From Symbiodinium sp. CCMP2592 (lineage: Eukaryota; Sar; Dinophyceae; Suessiales; Symbiodiniaceae), in NCBI GenBank assembly GCA_905221615.1, contig CAJNDT010000147.1, forward strand, positions 273,501 through 337,500: a stretch of DNA of 64,000 bases. Direction: 5' to 3'. Shown here in pieces: positions 2,836 to 64,000 of the stretch. Made by a program: the position numbers and the translations under genes. Every line of letters starts with the position of its first letter. Position 1 is the first letter of the stretch. The notes under the pieces are model-generated. The model made no database searches and was not told the origin of the DNA. It saw nothing but the letters and a program-made list of their open reading frames with translations.

Positions 2836-2964
2836 GACATCAACAGAGACTTTCCTGCAAAACTCAGCTCTGGACGAGGAAAGCACGCATGCCATCCTTG
2901 AGTCCCTGGCAAGCGGGCTTGCGGTGGTCCGGATTCGGGTTCCGAATCTCTGGAATAGAACAGT

Positions 2965-3086
2965 ACTTGGAAGGGCAGGGGACTTAGTAAGCAGGTTATA
3001 AGTAGAGTTATAAGTACCCTAAATGGAGTTACCCCAGTTATAACCCTACTTATAACCTACTTACTAAGTCCCCTGCCCTTCCAAGT
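2965..3086. mobile_element. Family-F TIR element
   Basis: The arms are ACTTGGAAGGGCAGGGGACT and its reverse complement, enclosing a TTATAAGTAG-rich centre. A second copy lies at 17684-17806. Non-coding. Confidence 0.85.
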
Positions 3087-5535
3087 ATAGTCTTCATTAG
3101 GAGCACGAAGGCATACCATGGGTAAGAACTTTAGGCGGCTCGGCTTACCGAGTATGGATGTGCACGATCTAATTAGGGCTGACAGGCCTCAAAGAATCTG
3201 GATGCATTGATAAGGTTCAAGATGCTTGCGAGAAATCCTGAGCTCGCACCCATGTCCGTCGACACATGCCCCCTTCTCTTTTTGCCCTTGCCCGTCAAGG
3301 ATGAAACACCACCAATCCTGAAACTCCCTTTTTGCACGGGCTTGTGTGAAGCCCGCCTGGATGTCTCCTGAAACTCCCTAATTGAACCCAAAACGCTTAG
3401 GCTTAAACCCCTAAACACGTTTTTCGCATCCAGCCTGCAACTGCCTCAACCCCATAGACCCCTAACCCTAAACTTTGCTTTTGGACCTCACCCACAGTCG
3501 AAACCGAAACTGCCTCCCCGCGCCAGTGAAGCTCCAGCCTTGTGTTGACCAGCTCTTAAGTTTCGTTTCTGTTTTTGGGGGTAACTACCCTAAGGCCTCA
3601 AAGTAGTTCCTTTTTGGGGTTCGTATATAGAATCCCATGAAGTAATCCCCAAAAAGGAACTAGTTTGGGGCCTATGGGTAATGGAGGGGCCTGGGGGGTT
3701 CCTTTTAAAGGGGTCATGATAAGGGTTATTCTAAGGGATCTATATGGGTACTATAAAATTGTGTAGGTTTTAGGATTGACGTGTACATGTTTAACGGTCA
3801 GGTTCAAAGCTGTTCGGGGTGAAGCACTCGGTCGAAGTTTTGAATTGATGAGTGGTTTTCTGTTGTTTGACGACGTTCGAGCATCTTCTCTTTTTGCGGC
3901 TGGCTGAGGAACACACGTGAGTTTGAGGGGGCTGCCATGGACAAGCAAGACAAACCTCGAATACTAAGACCATTGTGAAGGAACCCGTTAGAAGTGATTC
4001 CATACTCTCGGAGACCAGCATGACCTTACACGGTGCTAGGGAATTGCAGTCTTAGAGCTCATGAGTTTAGGGTTTTTGGTTTTGAAGAAGCTGCGGATGT
4101 GTGGTATGATGTTCAGATTTTGACACCTGCTCTGTTTACGGCAACAAAACCTGGAGAAACCTGCGAAAACCCTACCCCAGACTCTAAATCTTGGAGAATT
4201 GAATCGGCACAAGATTCCGGTAATCCGAGCTACCACCATAAGGAGCGCATAAGATTCGCAAAACATCCCCATGTGAGAAGCATCTCATTATGACATCTTG
4301 AATTAATAGCCTTGACAAGGACCCGAATGCTCCAGAGGAAACAGTCCCGAAATGACCATTGGCATGCCCTCACCCACAGCAACGATGATTTGTCGTCAGG
4401 GCTTGTGGGTTTCGGGATATAAGGTTTGGGAAACAATAGCTCCGTAGAGAAATTTGACTAGGTCGCAACCCCCAAAGGCAATCCTTCAAATCGCGAAACC
4501 CGGATATGCATCCTAAAACCCAGAAACCAAAACCCTCAACCCAGAGGCAGCACCGGCTCGTGAAGAGACAGGCCCCCGACAGGGAGGAGAAGTCCCGATT
4601 CAGGATCTGCGCACCCGGAGCGATGCTCCTCTAAGACTCCAAAGTGTTCGTGACATAGCAGAGGAACGTTGGCAGATGGAAGAGGATTTGGTAGATATTC
4701 TGACGTATCTGAAGAAGCTGCAGAGGTTACATAGGATGTTGAGCCTCGTGGTTGTTAAACCGGAGGTCCTGAACTTGAGATTTGGGGCTGCAGGGCGCAA
4801 GGGTTCCCAGAGAGTTCGTGGGGGTGTTTGCTCTACTCGGCAAAAGCAGCACTGTGTTGCTCTTGCATGAAGGACCTTTCTACTCAGATCCCTACACCGT
4901 AAAGCCGGAAAAATCAAGCAGGCACCCTAGGGCTCCAGTTATTTGAACAGTATGAACCATAAAGGATGCAACCCGGTAGCCGACTATTTATCCTAGGGTC
5001 CACTTAGCTTCACGGGAAATTGCAAGGTCCTTTTCTCGGTAGCCTCCAAGTCCGCCACCTGCGACAAAAGGTCGCTTAGGGTTATGGTAACTCAGGGGCC
5101 TTAGTATTGAACATGGGGTTTTGGGTATAGTATACTTTAATTAAGGCAAGGAACCCCCAGAGTGGTCGAGGTAAATTTTAAGGCGCTTAGATTTCAGCAT
5201 TCCTAGTAGTTCAGGGTTTAAGCTTGCAGGATCTTCGGGTTGGATTTGCCGTAGCTGTTGCACGCCCATAAAGATGGACCATTTGGGACCGTTGAGTCTG
5301 ATTCCTTGGCTCTTGCAATAGATACAGAAGCATACGCGAAGCGTCAGTACCCCATCACACTCTCTCGCTCCCTCTTTCCCTCTCCATGGTTCAATTCAAT
5401 CTGGGAACCCTGACAGAAAACATCCTGTGAACACCGAGCCCCTGACCCCCAAACCCTTCCCTCTGACTCCAACCTCAAAATGAAGTTTCTAGAGCTTGCT
5501 GAAAGCAACCATATCAAAAAGGGGCTTCGGAAGTA
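3087..5535. other. Gene-free filler
   Basis: I see one family-C element (3583-3679) and a decayed family-D relic near 5094-5155. There is no supportable gene. A minus-strand frame near 3190-3290 reads loosely protein-like but has no match I can name. Confidence 0.4.
3583..3679. mobile_element. Family-C TIR element
   Basis: The TIR begins TACCCTAAGGCCTCAAAGTA and the inner arm is GTAGTTCCTTTTTGGGGTT, mirrored on the right. The closest sibling is 56209-56304. Non-coding. Confidence 0.85.
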
Positions 5536-16275: not shown

Positions 16276-16371
16276 CTACCTTAACCCTGAAGGACCTACC
16301 TTTTTAAGGACTTATAGAAGGAAATCATAATCAGGAACCCTAAAAAGGTAGGTTATTCAGGGTTAAGGTAG
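16276..16371. mobile_element. Family-G TIR element
   Basis: CTACCTTAACCCTGAAGGAC is mirrored by a GGTTATTCAGGGTTAAGGTAG-like arm. The centre is TTTAAGGACTTATA. Siblings lie at 51451-51543 and 57155-57250. Confidence 0.8.
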
Positions 16372-17683: not shown

Positions 17684-17806
17684 TACTTGGAAGGGCAGGA
17701 AACTTAGTAAGTAGGATATAAGTAGAGTTATAAGTACCCTAAATGGAGTTACCCCAATTATAACCCTACTTATAACCTACTTACCAAGTCCCCTGCCCTT
17801 CCAAGC
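17684..17806. mobile_element. Family-F TIR element
   Basis: Nearly identical to 2965-3086, with the same CTTGGAAGGGCAGG arms and TTATAAGTAGAGTTATAAG centre. The high identity suggests relatively recent spread. Confidence 0.85.
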
Positions 17807-34190: not shown

Positions 34191-35104
34191 TTATCCCGCA
34201 TCCCATACTCGGTGGGAGAGCTCCTCCACGCCGAAGCCGTCAGCCGCCTTCAGCATCGATGAGGATGGCATTGCCGCCATGCAATCCTTCACATACTGTT
34301 CCAGACGGGGGTCAATCTGAATGCCGGATTTCTGCTTGATCATGGGCTGCATCGCGCAATGCAAGTAAGGCATCACCTTGTAGTCTGCGATGGTGAGCTT
34401 GTCCCCACAAATGTACTTGCCTTGGCCGATGAAGGTCTTCTTGAAACAGCTCAGGATCTCGCTGAGCTCTTCGTTCACCTTCGCCTGGTCCGCGGGGTGT
34501 GAGCCAAAGCCCAAGATTGGGTAGGTCCTTTGGAGCCACTTCTGATACACCGAGGTTCCCATGGCGTCCATGGCCCAATCGATTCGGGCTCTCATTTTCG
34601 GGTCGTCCGGATAGTAAGCCGGGGCATACTTCGCGGCCATGTAGCGCAAGATGGCATTGGACTCCCCAAGGGTGAAGCCATCTGCACCCTCGTAGGTCGG
34701 GATCGTGTGGAAGGCGTTCTTCGCCAAGAACTCAGGCTTCAAGTGTGCACCCGACATGAGGTCGCAGAACCTTAGCCGATTGAGTGTCCGGCCACCACAA
34801 GCAACACAAGCAACCACAGTTCCTGTAGAGTCAGGTGTGCAAGATTCCTCTACTTTCCAATATAGTTCCTTTAGCGGTCTACTTTACAGGACTTAAATGT
34901 TAAGTCGGTTAAACCGAAAAAGAACTACGCCATAGACTATAGGTAGCTTCCCTACTTGACCCCTTGGGCAAGCAACTCAAAGGCACCAATACCTGTGTCT
35001 TGGGCAAAGAGTACCGGCGACATGGCGTTGCAGGAGAGGGTCAAACCATGAATCTTGGCCTTGCCGTCCGGCGCCGTGGCTGGGCCACCGCAAAGGTTTC
35101 CCAT
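34191..35104 (-). CDS. Glutathione S-transferase, first copy (GST-1), two exons
   Basis: Inferred exons are 34977-35104 and 34191-34770, giving 235 residues, a normal cytosolic GST length. Exon 1 starts at an ATG in GCCATGGG context and encodes the first strand and helix of the thioredoxin fold (KIHGLTLSCNAMSP, then TGIGAFE). Exon 2 supplies DLMSGAHLKPEF, HTIPTYEG with the cis-Pro of the glutathione site, GESNAILRY, and the helical C-terminal domain with LTIADYKVMPYL. The intron (34771-34976) has a GT donor and AG acceptor and gives GAFEFCDLMSG across the junction. An open frame continuing upstream of exon 2 reads into intron and is not the start. It is probably active in glutathione conjugation in the cytosol; the class cannot be fixed. 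Its paralog lies downstream on the same strand. Confidence 0.85.
34849..34946. mobile_element. Family-C TIR element inside the GST-1 intron
   Basis: TAGTTCCTTT and AAAGAACTAC form the inner arms, with a CTATAGG end shared with 18543-18638. It is ~98 bp of a 206-bp intron; the outer arms are diverged. Confidence 0.75.
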
Positions 35105-56208: not shown

Positions 56209-56304
56209 AACTACCCTAAGGCCCCAAAGTAGTTCCTTTTTGGGCTTTGTATATAGAATCCTTTAAGGTAATCCCCAAAACGAACTACTTTGGGGCCTAT
56301 GGGT
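56209..56304. mobile_element. Family-C TIR element (subfamily 1)
   Basis: AACTACCCTAAGGCCCCAAA to TTTGGGGCCTATGGGTA. It is nearly identical to 3583-3679, suggesting recent activity. Confidence 0.85.
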
Positions 56305-56512
56305 AGAGTACCTGTGTCTGTGGAAGCCTACTACGCAACGCAAAGATACTTTCAGACTTCGGGGACAAGTGCTAGGTCAGTAGCCCATTATTCACACGGG
56401 CATCCTGTTCAGGCTGTGCAGTTTGCATGCAGACCACCCAGGACAGCAGGTCGTCAGGTGCTACTACGATAATTAACTTTCGTTAACTAAACCCTATACC
56501 CCTTCAGGGGAA

Positions 56513-57154: not shown

Positions 57155-57250
57155 TTACCTTAACCCTGAAGGACCTACCTTTTTAAGGACTTATATCAGG
57201 AAATCAGAATAAGGAACCCTAAAAAGGTAGGTTATTCAGGGTTAAGGTAG
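57155..57250. mobile_element. Family-G TIR element
   Basis: TACCTTAACCCTGAAGGACC to GGTTATTCAGGGTTAAGGTA, very close to 16276-16371. Confidence 0.85.
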
Positions 57251-57660: not shown

Positions 57661-58626
57661 TCAGTCCTCCAGCATCCGAGACCACTGTGTGTCTGCAAGG
57701 GCCGTCTTGATCTCCTCCCAGTTCTGCAGGAAGCTTTCGATCTTGCCGTCATGCAGCTTTTGATAGCGTCCAGCCACCTGCACGGGTGGAGATTTGCAGG
57801 AGGTTCCTCTGAGCATGAAACTCCACACGTCGCCCAAGTCTTTCACAATATCCTCGTAGTAGACACGACGGTATTGAACGGCATTGGATTCCAAAAACTT
57901 GGCCAAACGGGAGTTCTCAGCTTCACTGGTCTTGAGTTCTCTGAGAAGTAGTTTTGGGCTGATCGTGACCTTCTGCTTCTTGATCGCGCCAGCCGTCTTA
58001 TCATCTTGCGTTGCTGCAACGCCCTGGACCGCATTGGCATGGCCCGAAACGAGCCTTCTCACCAGGTTCTTGCGCTGTACCCAGAGTATCCGGATCGAGT
58101 GATTGCTGGAATACTGGCGAAACCAGGCGGGCCAATCCTCAAGAAAGCCTTGGTTGATTTTCCAGTTGAACCCTCGGATAAATTTGCCGCTGCCCAACTC
58201 ACGCGCACTGATCTGAACATAGCGCTCCACCTGCCATGGCATCTTCTTGCCATCCACAACCATGTCGCTAGGTACGTCTGCAGGATTGAAGAATCTCCGG
58301 ATCGCCATTTTGCGTAGTGCAGGTGGCCACCAGGAAGTATCGTTGCAGCAGAGAATCTCTGGTTGTACGTCAATGCACGGGTGTTGGTTGATCTTTTCTG
58401 TCAACCAGTGCGTACCCGAGCGCTGCTGAGCAAGGAGAATAACCCAAGTTTGCTCAGGCTTCTGCTTGGCATCTTCCAACGACAACGGCTTGGGTTGAGA
58501 CACGGATTCAGACTGGTTTGGACTCAAGGAGTTCGAACAGAATGAAAGCATAGCCGAGTGCATGAAGCCTGTGGTCAGAAGACTGCCTATAAAGATGCCA
58601 TAGAGCAGACCACGCCAGAACGGCAT
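57661..58626 (-). CDS. Membrane-anchored sulfotransferase-like protein
   Basis: A 321-residue single-exon protein. A transmembrane segment at residues ~3-21 (WRGLLYGIFIGSLLTTGF) gives a type II anchor, as in Golgi sulfotransferases. RSGTHWL (69-75) after a hydrophobic strand is the 5'-phosphosulfate loop. RKNLVRRLVS (185-194) matches the 3'-phosphate-binding Arg/Ser motif. Together these imply transfer of sulfate from PAPS to a carbohydrate or small acceptor in the secretory lumen; the substrate is unknown. The frame stays open to an ATG at 58701, but those 25 extra codons run through CCCTAAA filler. I therefore prefer the ATG at 58626, which directly follows a GCAG that could be a trans-splice acceptor. 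No introns are needed. Confidence 0.8.
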   Translation of the reverse strand: MPFWRGLLYGIFIGSLLTTGFMHSAMLSFCSNSLSPNQSESVSQPKPLSLEDAKQKPEQTWVILLAQQRSGTHWLTEKINQHPCIDVQPEILCCNDTSWWPPALRKMAIRRFFNPADVPSDMVVDGKKMPWQVERYVQISARELGSGKFIRGFNWKINQGFLEDWPAWFRQYSSNHSIRILWVQRKNLVRRLVSGHANAVQGVAATQDDKTAGAIKKQKVTISPKLLLRELKTSEAENSRLAKFLESNAVQYRRVYYEDIVKDLGDVWSFMLRGTSCKSPPVQVAGRYQKLHDGKIESFLQNWEEIKTALADTQWSRMLED

Positions 58627-59145
58627 CTGCTTCCACAGGAGCACCGGATTGCAAGTGAACAACCCTATAACCCCTAAACAGCGACCCAAAACAAGATGCA
58701 CGTTTGCTTTCGTTTTTGGCCCTGCGCGGCCAGCCGAAGGGCCCCTGTCGTACTACCGACGTCGACGTGTATATACAATGACGAAAACCCTTTAAAGCCT
58801 ATACAAACATGTGTGTTCTCTACAACGGATATGATTGACGATGCTTCTTCTTCTTCTTGTTAATATTTGTGCTTACTCTTGGAACTTCGATCATGTTTAT
58901 CATTGTTAATATTGCCTGGAAAAGTGATGCAAATTACGAAACCGCTGTACTCCAAAAACCCAGGCGAAAGACACACTGCAGACCTGAGCCAAACGGAAGC
59001 TCCGAACTTGGAAACCTACACCCTGATCTAGTTGTTGCTTAGGTTTTTTTTTTGCCGGCCGCGGTTTTAGGGCTTAGGGCAGCAGGTGTTGCGGTTGCTG
59101 AAGGACCCTGTTTCCGTCTCGCAGTGGTCTTGGAAGCAGTTTCCT
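58627..59145. other. Spacer upstream of the sulfotransferase
   Basis: CCCTAAA filler, then an AT-rich stretch with a CTT microsatellite (58843-58857). I see no promoter motif; dinoflagellate promoters are not recognisable by TATA boxes. Confidence 0.4.
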
Positions 59146-59648: not shown

Positions 59649-59741
59649 CCTATAACCCTTCAGAAGGGGACGCCGTGGACGCTTGTTTCTTCCTTGTGTG
59701 GACGCTTGTTTGCTCCTTGTCGATTGTGTTCCCAGCCGGTG

Positions 59742-60117
59742 CCCCGACTTAATGACTTAAAAAATTTAAGTCATTAAGTCAGGGCCCCGGCTGGATCCAA
59801 GATCCAAGATTGCAGAAAAAAGTTTCTTGGATCCATCTTGGATCCGGGAGGGCCCCGACTTAATGACTTAAAAAATTTAAGTCATTAAGTCAGGGCCCCG
59901 GCTGGATCCAAGATCCAAGATTGCAGAAAAAGTTTCTTGGATCCATCTTGGATCCGGGAGGGCCCCGACTTAATGACTTAAAAAATTTAAGTCATTAAGT
60001 CAGGGCCCCGGCTGGATCCAAGATCCAAGATTGCAGAAAAAAGTTTCTTGGATCCATCTTGGATCCGGGAGGGCCCCTGACTTAATGACTTAATTTTTTT
60101 AAGTCATTAAGTCGGGG
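59742..60117. repeat. Tandem array of double hairpins bounded by inverted palindromes
   Basis: Three units of 110-111 bp start at 59742, 59853 and 59963. Each holds a palindrome with 16-nt arms (GACTTAATGACTTAAA and its inverse) and a second hairpin from GGATCCAAGAT to ATCTTGGATCC. A final palindrome at 60074-60117 is in the opposite orientation (T-rich instead of A-rich loop), so the whole array has inverted ends. It lies ~300 bp upstream of the three-ORF unit. Non-coding. Confidence 0.95.
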
Positions 60118-60415
60118 CGCGCGGCTCTTGGAATGTCCTGTGCTTGCGTCCCGGTGTCCCTGTAGGAATAATTCACCATTCAGGGTTATAGATGTTTACT
60201 TACGATACAGAGCTTTACCTGTCAGGTCACTTGGCTGCATCGCGGCGAAGCAACTGGGCCTTTTGGGGTCTGCTTGGGTAGGCACTACGACCCTTAAACT
60301 TAATCCTTAACCCTACGCCCCAAACCCCGACATCATCATTACTCCACCTTGCAAGGCTTCGGCTTGAAAGCATCGTAGCTCCTGTATTCTTTGCTTCGTA
60401 TTCCCCAGTCGAATA
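60118..60415. other. 5' leader of the three-ORF unit
   Basis: Short CCCTAAA-type filler at 60290-60330, then ~90 bp without filler before the first ATG. No core promoter motif was seen. Confidence 0.4.
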
Positions 60416-61315
60416 ATGGCTTCAACGGTGGAGGTATCCGGTGATGCAATCTTCAAAGGCAAGCAGGTCATCTTGCGATTGCAACAGTCGCAAGAGTCGC
60501 AGTCAAAAGAAAATCCAGAAGTGGTCGTGCTCAAACCTTTGCCTGATGACACGAAGATTTTGACGGAGATTCAGAGCGGTACGATTGACTGCCACCCAAG
60601 TCGTCTCCCAATCACTGCCTACGAGGTGCGGAAGTTGATGAGGAACATCCAGCTTGGAATGCAGTTGCGTCCACCTGCTGGTCCATGGTCCGATGTTGCA
60701 CACAACCGCTTTCTCGACTTGTTGAGCAAGCCAAAACGCAAGCGCGGTCGCAAATGTGAGATGATTGAAAATGGTGATGGGGCACCCTTGTGCTTGATGG
60801 ATGAGCCCATGCCCGAAAGCCCCGAGAACATCGCGGAGGACGCCGAGAACATCGCCGAGGACGCCGCCAAGCTCATGCAGCCGAACATCCCCCGGGACAC
60901 CGAGAACATCGCCAATGACGCCGCCAACCTGATGAAGCAGAACATCCACCAGGACACCGAGAACATCGCCAACGACGCCGCCAACCTGATGAAGCAGAAC
61001 TTCCCCCAGGACGCTGAGAACATCCCCAATGACGCCGCCAATCTGATGAAGCAGAACATCCACGAGGACGACAACAAGGTTTCCATGGACACCAACCCGA
61101 ACACGAGCGAGAACGATAACATGGAACAATGCGCCGGCAATGCTATCAACCAGGACAGCAGCGACAGTTCTACATCGTCATCCTCATCCTCATCGTCTTC
61201 TTCTACACCGAAGAAAGAGTTGCGTCGCCGTATCGTTGTGCTCGAAGCGGACTTGGAGGAAGTCAGCCGCGACCTGTACATTGCTAATGATGCATTGGGG
61301 GCCCATGATGGATAA
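60416..61315 (+). CDS. Hypothetical repeat and coiled-coil protein (first ORF of the unit)
   Basis: 299 residues starting at ATG in AATAATGG context. The N-terminal ~100 residues (containing ITAYEVRKLMRNIQLGMQL) have no family I recognise. KPKRKRGRK at 105-113 is an AT-hook-like or nuclear-localisation patch. Residues 157-213 are three 19-residue tandem repeats of the type NIPRDTENIANDAANLMKQ, preceded by degenerate ENIAEDA copies. A poly-Ser linker (about 245-262) leads to a charged helix (KKELRRRIVVLEADLEEVSR) that probably forms a coiled coil. The reverse strand is also open for 208-244 codons because of the repeat; that is a shadow. Inference: a nuclear, DNA- or partner-binding accessory protein of a mobile element. 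The next ORF starts 175 bp downstream on the same strand. Confidence 0.75.
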   Translation: MASTVEVSGDAIFKGKQVILRLQQSQESQSKENPEVVVLKPLPDDTKILTEIQSGTIDCHPSRLPITAYEVRKLMRNIQLGMQLRPPAGPWSDVAHNRFLDLLSKPKRKRGRKCEMIENGDGAPLCLMDEPMPESPENIAEDAENIAEDAAKLMQPNIPRDTENIANDAANLMKQNIHQDTENIANDAANLMKQNFPQDAENIPNDAANLMKQNIHEDDNKVSMDTNPNTSENDNMEQCAGNAINQDSSDSSTSSSSSSSSSSTPKKELRRRIVVLEADLEEVSRDLYIANDALGAHDG

Positions 61316-61490
61316 GGCTTGTCGCACGGCGCATCCGCGAAAAGCGCCTGCAATCATGCACATTTGAATGCTCCGTAGGACACATCATGTTGCAAACGAT
61401 TGCAATCTTTCTTAAATCTGTCTTGCGCCTAGTGCCCTTAAGCCGAGACAGATAGTGGTGTTAGCTCCTCGCGATTTCTTGCGGTGCAAC

Positions 61491-63422
61491 ATGGCGTCGC
61501 CGCATAACAGGCTGCTAGATGATGCCATGGCCAAGTACGCCGCAAAGGAGTGGACCATTCAGGAGCACTCGACGCCAGTCTATGTCAACAATAGCCAGGC
61601 GGACATCTCCGAGTGCATTCGGCTGTCAGATCTTGAGAAGCATGCTTGTCGTCGTGACCTTCCAAAGACATGCGTGCTTGTATTGGATGCACACTACCAG
61701 ATCGCTGAGTTTGGGAACTTGCTTTCAGTATGTGAACGTCTGTCAAATCAGGACTATTCAGCTCTACCGCCTAGACTACAGCCGTCGACGTCTTTGCCAC
61801 ACGGAGCTACCGTCTCTTACATCATTCACAATCTGCAGGACGGGACCATGGACGTTCTGCGGATCATCAGGTTCACGGCCACGGTTGCCGCGAAGGAAGC
61901 AAAGGGCTTCTGCACCGGGCTTCCATTGTTCTTCGCTTACCGCGAGGGACCGTGGAGCTGGAAGAAGGCAGTCCATGCTCTCCTTGGCCGTCTTCCGGGA
62001 CATCATGTCGTTTGGTGGACTCTTTGTGAAAAGGAACTCAAGCGCGCCCAATCCACAGCAGCATGGACCGCTTCCGATGACGAGCTTGTCAAAGGCGTTG
62101 ACTTCGTGAACAAGAATGCCCCAGAAGACGATTCGGAGAACCAGCAATACCTGTGGATCTTGACGAACATCAAGGCGGACAGTGGCTCGCCAATTGCGGG
62201 CTGGCCGGAGGGCAAGATCATCCGGATGGCTCAGAATAAAAGTCGTGCGAATGTAGGAGCATCTTCGTGCCGCTTCTTCCCAATGACCACCAAGAGTATG
62301 AAGCCATTCATGGGAGAGTTTCTCTTCCCCTTGTTTGCACCCTTACTGACTAGCTTCGGAATTGTGACCATCGGATGGCCGGGAGTTGGGAAGACTCCTC
62401 TGCTCATCATTCTCGCTCTGGCCATCGGCAGGTATCACATCAATCGCCTGGAACTGGAGGGAGTTTCTCCTGGGTGGAGGAGGGCCAAGGCCATGGATAA
62501 CTTTAGGCATCGCAATGCACAGATCCACGAGGGCTTGATACTAGATGATCCCAACATGGACAAAATGGAGCCCGCGGATGTCAAATCGTGGCTAACTTCT
62601 GAGGAAGATCAGAACTGTTCGGGTCGGTACACGGATGTGAAGCTCGTCGCCAATGGCCTTCGGGCCTTAGCTGCAAACGACTTTGTACCTGAAGACGAAC
62701 CACTCCCGGACAAGCACCATACCTCCATCGAGCCAAAAGAGTTCTTCAATCTCGTCAAGAAATTCTTCGTAGGCTACAAGGAGGCCGACATGATGGCTGT
62801 TTTGAAACGTTGCATCATGTTCATCTTCGGCAAGCGTGCAACCTATCTTCGTCTGCCTTCCCAGGATCGTAACGCCCTTATCCACTGCATTCGAGTAGAT
62901 GACCTGCACGAAGATCTGTTCACACCGCGAGACAAGGACTTCTACGCCAAGTACAAAGTTGGCATCCATGAGCCGCCTCCTACATTCGAGGCAGACATTG
63001 CCAAGGAGCAGGAACTCCTGCTTCAGGGCATAGAGTCTATGCAGACGGCCGGTCGTCCAGAAACTTACATGGCCGAAATCAATCAAAAGATTGCGGACAA
63101 GATCGGCTCTTTGACTCGCGCATCCACTGCAGTGCATCTTCCTGCTTCGCCATCCACCGACGAGGAGACCGCAGTCCCAGTTCCTTTCCCAGAAGCTCTG
63201 CCTGTGGCTTGCGTCAATCCTCCTGGGCGAATGGGCCAGTTCCAATATCCTCCTCCAAAGCGTCGCCTCACCAGCAAGACTTCCATGACCTCCGAGATCG
63301 GGGAGAATTTGGAGACACCCACCCACATTGCGGGGGGCATGGCATCCTCGACGGTGGAACCTCCGGCAATGGCTTGCGATGACGATCCTGATGAGCAAGC
63401 AGCCCGTGACATGCACAACTGA
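61491..63422 (+). CDS. P-loop ATPase resembling superfamily-3 helicases (second ORF)
   Basis: 643 residues from the first ATG; a GTG-initiated extension to 61455 is unlikely in a eukaryote. Walker A is GWPGVGKT (295-302). Walker B is LILDDPN (349-355). A polar residue at the end of a hydrophobic strand, RALAANDF with N396, fits sensor-1/motif C. The spacing (DD, then a Trp/Leu helix, GRYTDVKL, then N) resembles the compact SF3 helicase domains of Rep-type replication proteins. Residues 1-280 are unassigned; I see no His-hydrophobic-His endonuclease motif. The C-terminal ~130 residues are Pro/Ser/Thr-rich and probably disordered. It has no introns, unlike GST-2. Likely role: a DNA helicase or ATPase for replication or mobility of the element. 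An AAA+ ATPase of another kind is possible. Confidence 0.75.
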   Translation: MASPHNRLLDDAMAKYAAKEWTIQEHSTPVYVNNSQADISECIRLSDLEKHACRRDLPKTCVLVLDAHYQIAEFGNLLSVCERLSNQDYSALPPRLQPSTSLPHGATVSYIIHNLQDGTMDVLRIIRFTATVAAKEAKGFCTGLPLFFAYREGPWSWKKAVHALLGRLPGHHVVWWTLCEKELKRAQSTAAWTASDDELVKGVDFVNKNAPEDDSENQQYLWILTNIKADSGSPIAGWPEGKIIRMAQNKSRANVGASSCRFFPMTTKSMKPFMGEFLFPLFAPLLTSFGIVTIGWPGVGKTPLLIILALAIGRYHINRLELEGVSPGWRRAKAMDNFRHRNAQIHEGLILDDPNMDKMEPADVKSWLTSEEDQNCSGRYTDVKLVANGLRALAANDFVPEDEPLPDKHHTSIEPKEFFNLVKKFFVGYKEADMMAVLKRCIMFIFGKRATYLRLPSQDRNALIHCIRVDDLHEDLFTPRDKDFYAKYKVGIHEPPPTFEADIAKEQELLLQGIESMQTAGRPETYMAEINQKIADKIGSLTRASTAVHLPASPSTDEETAVPVPFPEALPVACVNPPGRMGQFQYPPPKRRLTSKTSMTSEIGENLETPTHIAGGMASSTVEPPAMACDDDPDEQAARDMHN

Positions 63423-63586
63423 GCCAGGTCGGATCTTCGTGCAGTGACTGTATGAAAGGCGGAAATGCAAACATCTTGCATATTAACAGCTTTAACACCA
63501 TCCTGAATTAACTGTCTGAGTTTCATGAGAAGCTGCTGTCTGGGCAATCTCTGCATTCTGTTTCATCTGCATATGCCTCCAAGCAG

Positions 63587-64000
63587 ATGTCCCGTAGCTG
63601 CTCTTCTGTTCCACGTGCCGTAGGCTCCCGTGTCGCCATGAAACGTCCGTCCGCCGCCACAAGCCGGAAACGTCCATCAGCCTTCGCTCGCAGCTCTCAC
63701 CGGAAAGCTTGTGTCAAGGATCAAAAAGTTCTCAAGACCTACACCTTCCCTGGTGACGACTGCCCTATGTGCGGTAAGCGACTCTATGCCAGAACGGACA
63801 AGAACGTGAAGGCTATTCTCATTGGGGGAGAAACCATTGCGAATGTACAGACTGCGTCCAAGGTCTGTAACCGCTGCAGAAACACTGCACGTTACAACAT
63901 GTTCACGATCGGCAAGGAGCTCCTGAATTGCCTCTCGCTCGACCAAATGAAGGATGCCGGTGTCCTCTTTATTACTTCCAAGACTGCCTTCACCATTCCG
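63587..64000 (+). CDS. Four-cysteine, probably zinc-binding protein, 5' part only (third ORF)
   Basis: This frame is open to the right edge (138 codons) and so is a partial gene. The start ATG at 63587 is the first after an in-frame TAA at 63509; an alternative ATG is codon 18. A basic N-terminus (MKRPSAATSRKRPS) is followed by CPMC (Cys59, Cys62) and CNRC (Cys94, Cys97), a classic paired zinc ribbon or finger. Cysteine clusters of this general layout occur near the N-termini of several eukaryotic transposases, including KDZ-type, but the catalytic part is outside the window. It lies 164 bp after the ATPase stop, same strand. Inference: DNA-binding transposase or integrase-like partner. Confidence 0.65.
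   Translation, partial: MSRSCSSVPRAVGSRVAMKRPSAATSRKRPSAFARSSHRKACVKDQKVLKTYTFPGDDCPMCGKRLYARTDKNVKAILIGGETIANVQTASKVCNRCRNTARYNMFTIGKELLNCLSLDQMKDAGVLFITSKTAFTIP

Follow-up and report, generated by a model that had tools for sequence, protein, structure and literature searches.

Bacterial transposons such as Tn7, Mu, and IS21 rely on dedicated ATPases that decide where and when these elements insert. To our knowledge, such transposase–ATPase systems have no established eukaryotic equivalent. Dependence on dedicated AAA+ ATPases is described for many transposases (PMC11208146). The closest described relatives of the element treated here belong to the KDZ (Kyakuja–Dileera–Zisupton) superfamily of DNA transposons. 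Zisupton and Dileera are described as making 8-bp target duplications and Kyakuja as making 7-bp duplications and having no terminal inverted repeats (TIRs) (PMC12730594); KDZ transposases can exceed 1300 aa, and the elements can be up to 30 kb long (PMC12477816). Here we analyze a window of 64,000 nucleotides from the dinoflagellate Symbiodinium sp. CCMP2592 (G000:C147:273501–337500 of a 1.098-Gb assembly, with the 5 kb to its right masked). Near its right edge, starting at position 59661, lies a compact unit of three open reading frames (ORFs) that a preliminary description, made from the sequence alone, had read as a possible mobile or virus-derived element. This unit is very probably a KDZ-superfamily DNA transposon with three genes that has been active recently and in which the transposase is accompanied by its own ATPase. 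The evidence comes from comparing copies: their ends and target duplications, near-identical and shorter copies, constraint on the ATPase and transposase genes, a recurrent gene order, and a conflict between gene trees.

Results

Three complete, near-identical copies of the element are present elsewhere in the assembly (on C358, C5241, and C3702; lengths 5776, 5783, and 5910 bp). The left boundary, CAGAAGGGGACG, is common to all four copies, and the right boundary is common to the three complete ones. In the window, CAGAAGGGGACG opens the left TIR (59661–59693, + strand). The TIRs are imperfect, being identical at 28 of 31 bases in an alignment that begins two bases in. The 8-bp flanks of the complete copies read TAATCTTA/TAATCTTA, TAATTTTA/TAATTTTA, and AATACTTA/AATATTTA; the target-site duplication (TSD) is exact in two of the three and agrees at 7 of 8 bases in the third. 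Duplications of this length fit the KDZ superfamily, because the published Zisupton and Dileera elements make 8-bp duplications. For the window copy, the left TSD would be TAACCCTT at 59653–59660, its right partner falling in the masked sequence. Judged from the C3702 copy, the right end of the window copy should lie ∼1.24 kb past position 64000. ORF1 and ORF2 are interrupted in the C5241 copy and ORF3 is split in the C358 copy; at least one complete copy keeps all three frames open. The shared boundaries that the preliminary description had suggested looking for thus exist, in the form of common ends, TIRs, and 8-bp TSDs.

That description had also placed a palindromic array with inverted ends just upstream of the unit. 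The array is real, but it lies inside the element, downstream of its start at 59661. It occupies a subterminal position (59732–60126) and is built of a 111-bp unit repeated 3.5 times (59741–60126) with long inverted arms. Its first palindrome occurs 4 times in the window copy and 6, 6, and 7 times in the three complete copies. A separate neighboring element is ruled out for the array, which falls within boundaries shared by four copies.

Three uninterrupted frames follow on the + strand. ORF1 (60416–61315) encodes a 299-aa protein whose N-terminal part is kept in relatives; it also has tandem repeats of 19 aa and a tract rich in Ser. ORF2 (61491–63422) encodes a P-loop ATPase of 643 aa from its ATG, or 655 aa from an alternative GTG start at 61455. 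ORF3 (63587–64000) is open at the window edge and holds the first 138 aa, the N-terminal part, of a KDZ-type transposase. The gaps of 175 bp between ORF1 and ORF2 and 164 bp between ORF2 and ORF3 bear out the initial impression of tightly packed, intronless, same-strand genes, and the complete copies continue past the start of ORF3, as had been anticipated from its open end. Two labels needed revision. ORF1, first called a basic repeat protein, does contain repeats but is acidic (50 D+E vs. 31 K+R). The window part of ORF3 is basic (26 K+R vs. 8 D+E) and has the two C-x2-C pairs for which it was taken to be a DNA-binding zinc protein, but it is the start of a transposase; the complete frame in other copies rules out a plain zinc protein. 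The longest stop-free run is 668 codons, whereas 300 dinucleotide shuffles of 60127–64000 gave none longer than 317. GC content peaks at the third codon position in all three ORFs, and their synonymous codon preference matches, in frame only, that of two further long frames in the window. Neither ORF1 nor ORF2 has a significant family match in Pfam and the other profile searches.

The complete ORF3 has 460 aa (L015:6206–7588) and does not differ from the window part in any of the 138 codons. We assign it to the KDZ transposases through its relatives. It matches the third ORF of locus L031 (phmmer, 7.2e-15), which itself exceeds the cut-off of the Pfam KDZ model (PF18758; 27.5 vs. 26.6 bits, E 3.1e-6), and it matches C1657 (1.6e-11), which scores 41.8 bits on that model. 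The model is independent of the sequences of this analysis and passed its cut-off in 0 of 14 named control genomes. Scanned across the Symbiodinium genome, it passes at 25 places, 13 of them also ORF3 matches (ORF3 has 108 match rows in the genome); an ATPase lies upstream at 2 of these 13, C5196 (L031 itself) and C5273. Among ten third ORFs, one of which (L024) is a different, probably IS1595-like transposase, the KDZ model touches four at E up to 1, CxC4 touches five (best 6.1e-4, L031), and CxC5 touches one (L021, 2.7e-4). In the alignment of these ten (A1), C59, C62, D231, and D334 are invariant and C94 and C97 are conserved in at least 90%. By eye, the last acidic residue is probably the E in SESFNAW/CEQVFSW. 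The same genome also has KDZ-domain frames of 1,575–1,919 aa with no listed ATPase (C4951, C2224, C3124, C602, C1164, and C4446), which are perhaps larger single-gene KDZ elements.

ORF2 carries the Walker A sequence GWPGVGKTP, an LDDP motif, and a conserved N downstream. In 11 aligned homologs (A2; residue numbers follow the L015 copy), GxxGxGK[ST]P, D352–D353, R379, N396, and K439–R440 are invariant, as are G295, G300, and K301. Read by eye, with N396 taken as motif C, the order Walker A–DD–R/N–KR resembles that of superfamily 3 (SF3) helicases, which include P4 alpha, D5, and the parvovirus and CRESS Rep proteins. The best Pfam matches of the homologs, none of them significant, were RNA_helicase (E 0.056, 1 of 11), nSTAND3 (E 0.11, 4 of 11), Parvo_NS1 (E 0.14, 1 of 11), and IstB (best E 0.2, 4 of 11). 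A profile search of PDB sequences gave one nonsignificant match, to ClpC at Walker A (E 1.4). Aligned to MuB with hhalign, the ATPase domain covers 21 columns at Walker A (probability 64%), and the whole-ORF2 profile covers 67 other columns (probability 34%). Helicase, activator of the MuB/TnsC/IstB kind, and passenger are the candidate roles for this protein.

The three genes recur together in the genome. ORF2 has at least 73 match rows (68 of 304 candidates scored), and the genome match rows merge into at least 111 ATPase places; the lists of KDZ and ORF1 places are likewise lower bounds. At 38 of the 111 listed ATPase places a KDZ ORF3 match lies no more than 3 kb downstream in the same orientation, with 0 on the opposite strand and 1 upstream. 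Conversely, 38 of the 82 listed KDZ places have an ATPase upstream, and 17 of the 23 listed ORF1 places have one downstream. The order ORF1–ATPase–transposase is found outside the window family in the divergent units L017, L021 (third frame split), L026, L027, L028, L029, L031, and L032 (damaged). In L026–L029 the ORF1 relatives, which had no part in building the profile, match it at 1e-30 to 1e-46. The recurrent co-occurrence that the preliminary description had proposed to look for is therefore found, both in divergent units and in genome-wide counts. For the pairs L026/L029 and L027/L028, clean termini could not be set.

Two further groups of copies deserve mention. L017/L018 (G000:C2347:55001–67000) holds two tandem copies ∼6.1 kb apart with equal match scores, 63% identical to the window element; the second extends into L018. 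Five copies of another element (L020, L025, L030, L033, and L034) are 99.7–99.9% identical over 7.2–7.3 kb. Their ATPase belongs to the same family as ORF2 and has 712 aa, with an interruption in L020, and their ends are C-rich and lie within AT runs; their third gene, in pieces, has no significant Pfam match in the three L025 frames scanned.

Shorter copies share the ends of the element. The TIR core has 98 genome matches with up to 2 mismatches, compared with 0 for the reversed control. It forms 25 convergent pairs less than 10 kb apart: 22 of 2.07–2.94 kb and 3 of full length (5.76–5.90 kb core to core), where ∼0.001 neighboring pairs would be expected by chance. The remaining matches stand alone, lie at greater distances, or form two divergent pairs. 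In the window copy the left TIR carries the variant TTTCTTCC, with one mismatch, and 16 of the 22 short pairs have this variant at one of their ends. The short pairs look like nonautonomous copies, because 2.07–2.94 kb is too short for all three genes; the one on C2669 still holds parts of ORF2 and ORF3. At G000:C2146:38323–69575, 31 kb separates convergent window-family TIRs; ORF3 lies close to one of them and ORF1–ORF2 close to the other. Later insertions have perhaps split a single copy here.

Between families, the genes are clearly constrained. For L015 versus L017, the proportions of synonymous and nonsynonymous differences (pS, pN) are 0.78 and 0.25 for ORF2, 0.79 and 0.26 for ORF3, and 0.73 and 0.51 for ORF1; synonymous change is saturated in this comparison, so we do not quote ratios. 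On these values, the ATPase is about as conserved as the transposase. Among near-identical copies there are few changes, and the pattern is mixed; the window and L015 ORF2 differ by 1 synonymous and 6 other changes.

The ATPase is also found with a different transposase. Loci L022 and L024 carry ORF1 and ATPase relatives but have a different third ORF. Their ends are similar (GGGTACCCCCCTATATGGGG vs. GGGCGCACCCCTATTTGGGG); L022 is flanked by the exact 8-bp repeat ATGCATAT and L024 by ATATATAT, both of these flanking sequences lying in AT-rich runs. The L022 third ORF matches DDE_Tnp_IS1595 weakly (E 0.02; 15.3 bits vs. a cut-off of 27). Five relatives of this ORF (C4990, C879, C1160, C1741, and C1375; 5e-27 to 8e-27) pass the cut-off at 30.4–30.8 bits and make up 5 of the 23 passing places; none of the five has a listed ATPase. 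Of the 14 named control genomes one, Haloferax volcanii, exceeded the cut-off. The L022-type transposase is probably IS1595/ISXO2-like (Merlin-type). It lies downstream of the ATPase at 6 of the 111 listed ATPase places, with ORF1 checked at two of the six.

Gene trees point the same way. In the ATPase tree (9 sequences), L021 and L023 group with L022 and L025 (ultrafast bootstrap 100); in the KDZ tree (7 sequences, those of L021 and L023 incomplete), L023 groups with the window family and L021 with L026/L028/L031 (100). The ATPases of L021 and L022 are 44% identical, and their third ORFs differ in kind. L023 and the window family share 43–45% identity in the transposase and 21% in the ATPase. 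The two trees conflict with strong support, and therefore the modules have probably been reassorted. The simplest reading is that the ATPase module has probably been exchanged repeatedly between transposons.

The rest of the window was said to be almost gene-free, a fair summary, although two long frames on the − strand look gene-like by eye: 34191–34817, resembling glutathione S-transferase, and 57661–58701, resembling sulfotransferase and lacking a significant Pfam match. The full spliced-leader motif was not found within the 64 kb. Hairpin elements of ∼95–125 bp are dispersed through the window (56211–56306, 57156–57249, 3586–3680, 16276–16371, 2964–3087, 17686–17805, and others), some recurring within it at 77–96% identity. 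Outside low-complexity sequence, 12 hairpins were counted in the window, two of them the array itself, compared with 0 in 5 shuffles. The dispersed ones look like a separate palindromic repeat family of this genome.

Discussion

These results suggest how the element could move. The ORF3 DDE transposase would use its Cys cluster to bind the TIRs and perhaps the left-end palindromes. It would then excise the element and join its ends to staggered target DNA, giving rise to the 8-bp duplication. The ORF2 ATPase could assemble on DNA with ATP and either license the transposase or pick the target, as MuB, TnsC, and IstB do; alternatively, it might act as a helicase that remodels the complex. ORF1 would be an adaptor or regulator. 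Together, ORF1 and the ATPase would form an accessory module that is swapped between transposons with different transposases. More broadly, this module may be a eukaryotic counterpart of the bacterial transposase–ATPase systems, controlling how DDE transposases are activated or choose their targets and reassorted among at least two superfamilies (KDZ and IS1595-like) in one nucleus. We advance this broader idea tentatively and rate its chances at somewhat below even.

Several observations count against a KDZ transposon that carries its own ATPase. Transposition was not observed, and no empty site was seen. The Pfam KDZ model does not match ORF3 itself, either as the window part or complete, and all of the CxC matches fall below curated cut-offs. 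Searches of Pfam, PHROGs, NCBIfam, and PDB sequences gave the ATPase no significant match to a known class. Aligned with hhalign to P4 alpha and MuB, the ATPase domain agrees in little beyond Walker A, in a comparison with a shallow P4 alpha set (all 80 kept loci at ≥90% identity, 10 of 80 used) and 14 of 54 MuB sequences. A single-sequence AlphaFold model of 390 residues around the ATPase was unusable (pLDDT 33.7). For two near-identical pairs dN/dS exceeds 1 (L017/L032 ORF3, 1.29; L028/L027 ORF1, 1.22), the remaining such pairs with a defined value lying at 0.28–0.67. In L023 an ORF1-like frame follows the transposase, and neither an ORF1 nor a KDZ frame could be recognized in the group with the 712-aa ATPase. 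Finally, neither listed partner is present at 67 of the 111 ATPase places, and no listed ATPase is present at 44 of the 82 KDZ places, which include frames of 1,566–1,680 aa; the lists are lower bounds. Search misses contribute to these numbers, since the unpartnered ATPases on C68 (L027) and C3447 (L028) do have a KDZ ORF3 by profile. The 1,566–1,680-aa frames may be single-gene elements, and some ATPases may go with other transposases.

Other explanations must be weighed against this one. Had the three ORFs been ordinary host genes in a local cluster, their open frames and their constraint between families would be expected. Yet they are multicopy, with shared ends, TIRs, and target duplications, which rules out a host-gene cluster and leaves this idea with next to no weight. 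Nor is the virus-derived half of the preliminary description supported. An endogenous DNA virus or virophage-like element that uses the ATPase as a helicase for replication and ORF1 and ORF3 for structure or regulation would account for the SF3-like motif order and for the compact same-strand genes, and RNA_helicase and Parvo_NS1 were touched by one of the 11 homologs each, at values short of significance. However, the complete copies of 5.78–5.91 kb contain three long genes, none of which matched a capsid, polymerase, or packaging protein; ORF3 falls in the KDZ family, with the TIRs and TSDs of a DDE transposon; and no relative was found among IMG/VR viral contigs, either in three close-relative scans, run for ORF3 with the 138 aa present in the window and for ORF1 with its N-terminal 140 aa, or in one profile scan. 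Structure, gene content, and the viral-contig scans together lead us to reject a viral origin, which we consider highly improbable. The mobile-element half, in turn, is upheld by the shared boundaries, TIRs, 8-bp TSDs, and co-occurring ORFs.

Two explanations accept the transposon and concern its accessory genes. One holds that ORF2 is a true SF3 helicase giving the element a replicative step, by which it partly copies itself beyond cut-and-paste. Its motif order resembles SF3 (by eye), and the left-end palindromic arrays look origin-like by eye, but profile and fold comparisons lend no support, no HUH-type motif was seen by eye, and the ends and TSDs match ordinary DDE transposition; we think this unlikely. 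The original label of an SF3-like ATPase accordingly stands for the order of its motifs and lacks confirmation by profile or fold (best E 0.056, with the low-confidence model above). The other holds that ORF1 and the ATPase are passengers outside the transposition machinery, like the TET/JBP genes of fungal KDZ elements. Accessory genes are described as frequent in KDZ elements (PMC12730594, PMC12477816), the 44 KDZ places mentioned above have no listed ATPase, and swapping between transposases would fit a portable passenger. We nevertheless doubt this explanation about as much as the preceding one, given that the ATPase is about as constrained between families as the transposase and, where both are listed, immediately precedes the transposase in the same orientation at 38 places and in the opposite orientation at none. 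A KDZ transposon whose transposase has its own ATPase remains the reading we favor.

The KDZ superfamily, and KDZ elements with accessory genes, were already known (PMC12730594, PMC12477816). What appears to be new is a transposon lineage of eukaryotes whose dedicated ATPase is exchangeable. In the titles and abstract openings of the literature searched, no compact KDZ lineage of this kind was found; the word ATPase is absent from PMC12477816; our search found no paper linking Zisupton with a dinoflagellate; and the literature found on the TnsC/IstB/MuB AAA+ systems makes no use of "eukaryotic transposons." A single genome offers at least 111 ATPase places, near-identical copies, shorter same-ended copies, and indications that ATPases have been exchanged. 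The possibility that ATP gates the activation or the target selection of eukaryotic transposons thereby becomes directly testable.

It is useful to contrast the element with the systems it most resembles. Like Zisupton and Dileera, it has TIRs, makes 8-bp target duplications, and encodes a KDZ-type transposase, whose N-terminal cysteines are a candidate for the CxC cluster of that superfamily. It differs from them in being compact (5.8 kb), in having a short, 460-aa transposase placed after ORF1 and a P-loop ATPase, in its left-end palindromic array, and in the lack of any TET/JBP-like match in ORF1 or ORF2. Thus, the preliminary remark that this is not a textbook eukaryotic transposon was fair: the superfamily is known, and the ATPase partner is what is unusual. 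With SF3 helicases, ORF2 shares by eye the order of Walker A, DD, downstream N, and basic pair, but no Pfam SF3 family is significant and the fold is not confirmed. The IS1595/ISXO2-like sisters L022 and L024 carry relatives of ORF1 and the ATPase, whereas the window element itself is KDZ. In IS21 (IstAB), Tn7 (TnsC), and Mu (A/B), as here, the transposase gene adjoins a dedicated ATPase gene, and we propose a functional likeness. The window ATPase, however, stands upstream of its transposase and is joined by an additional ORF1, and its similarity to the bacterial proteins extends to a best E of 0.2 for IstB and 21 aligned columns for MuB.

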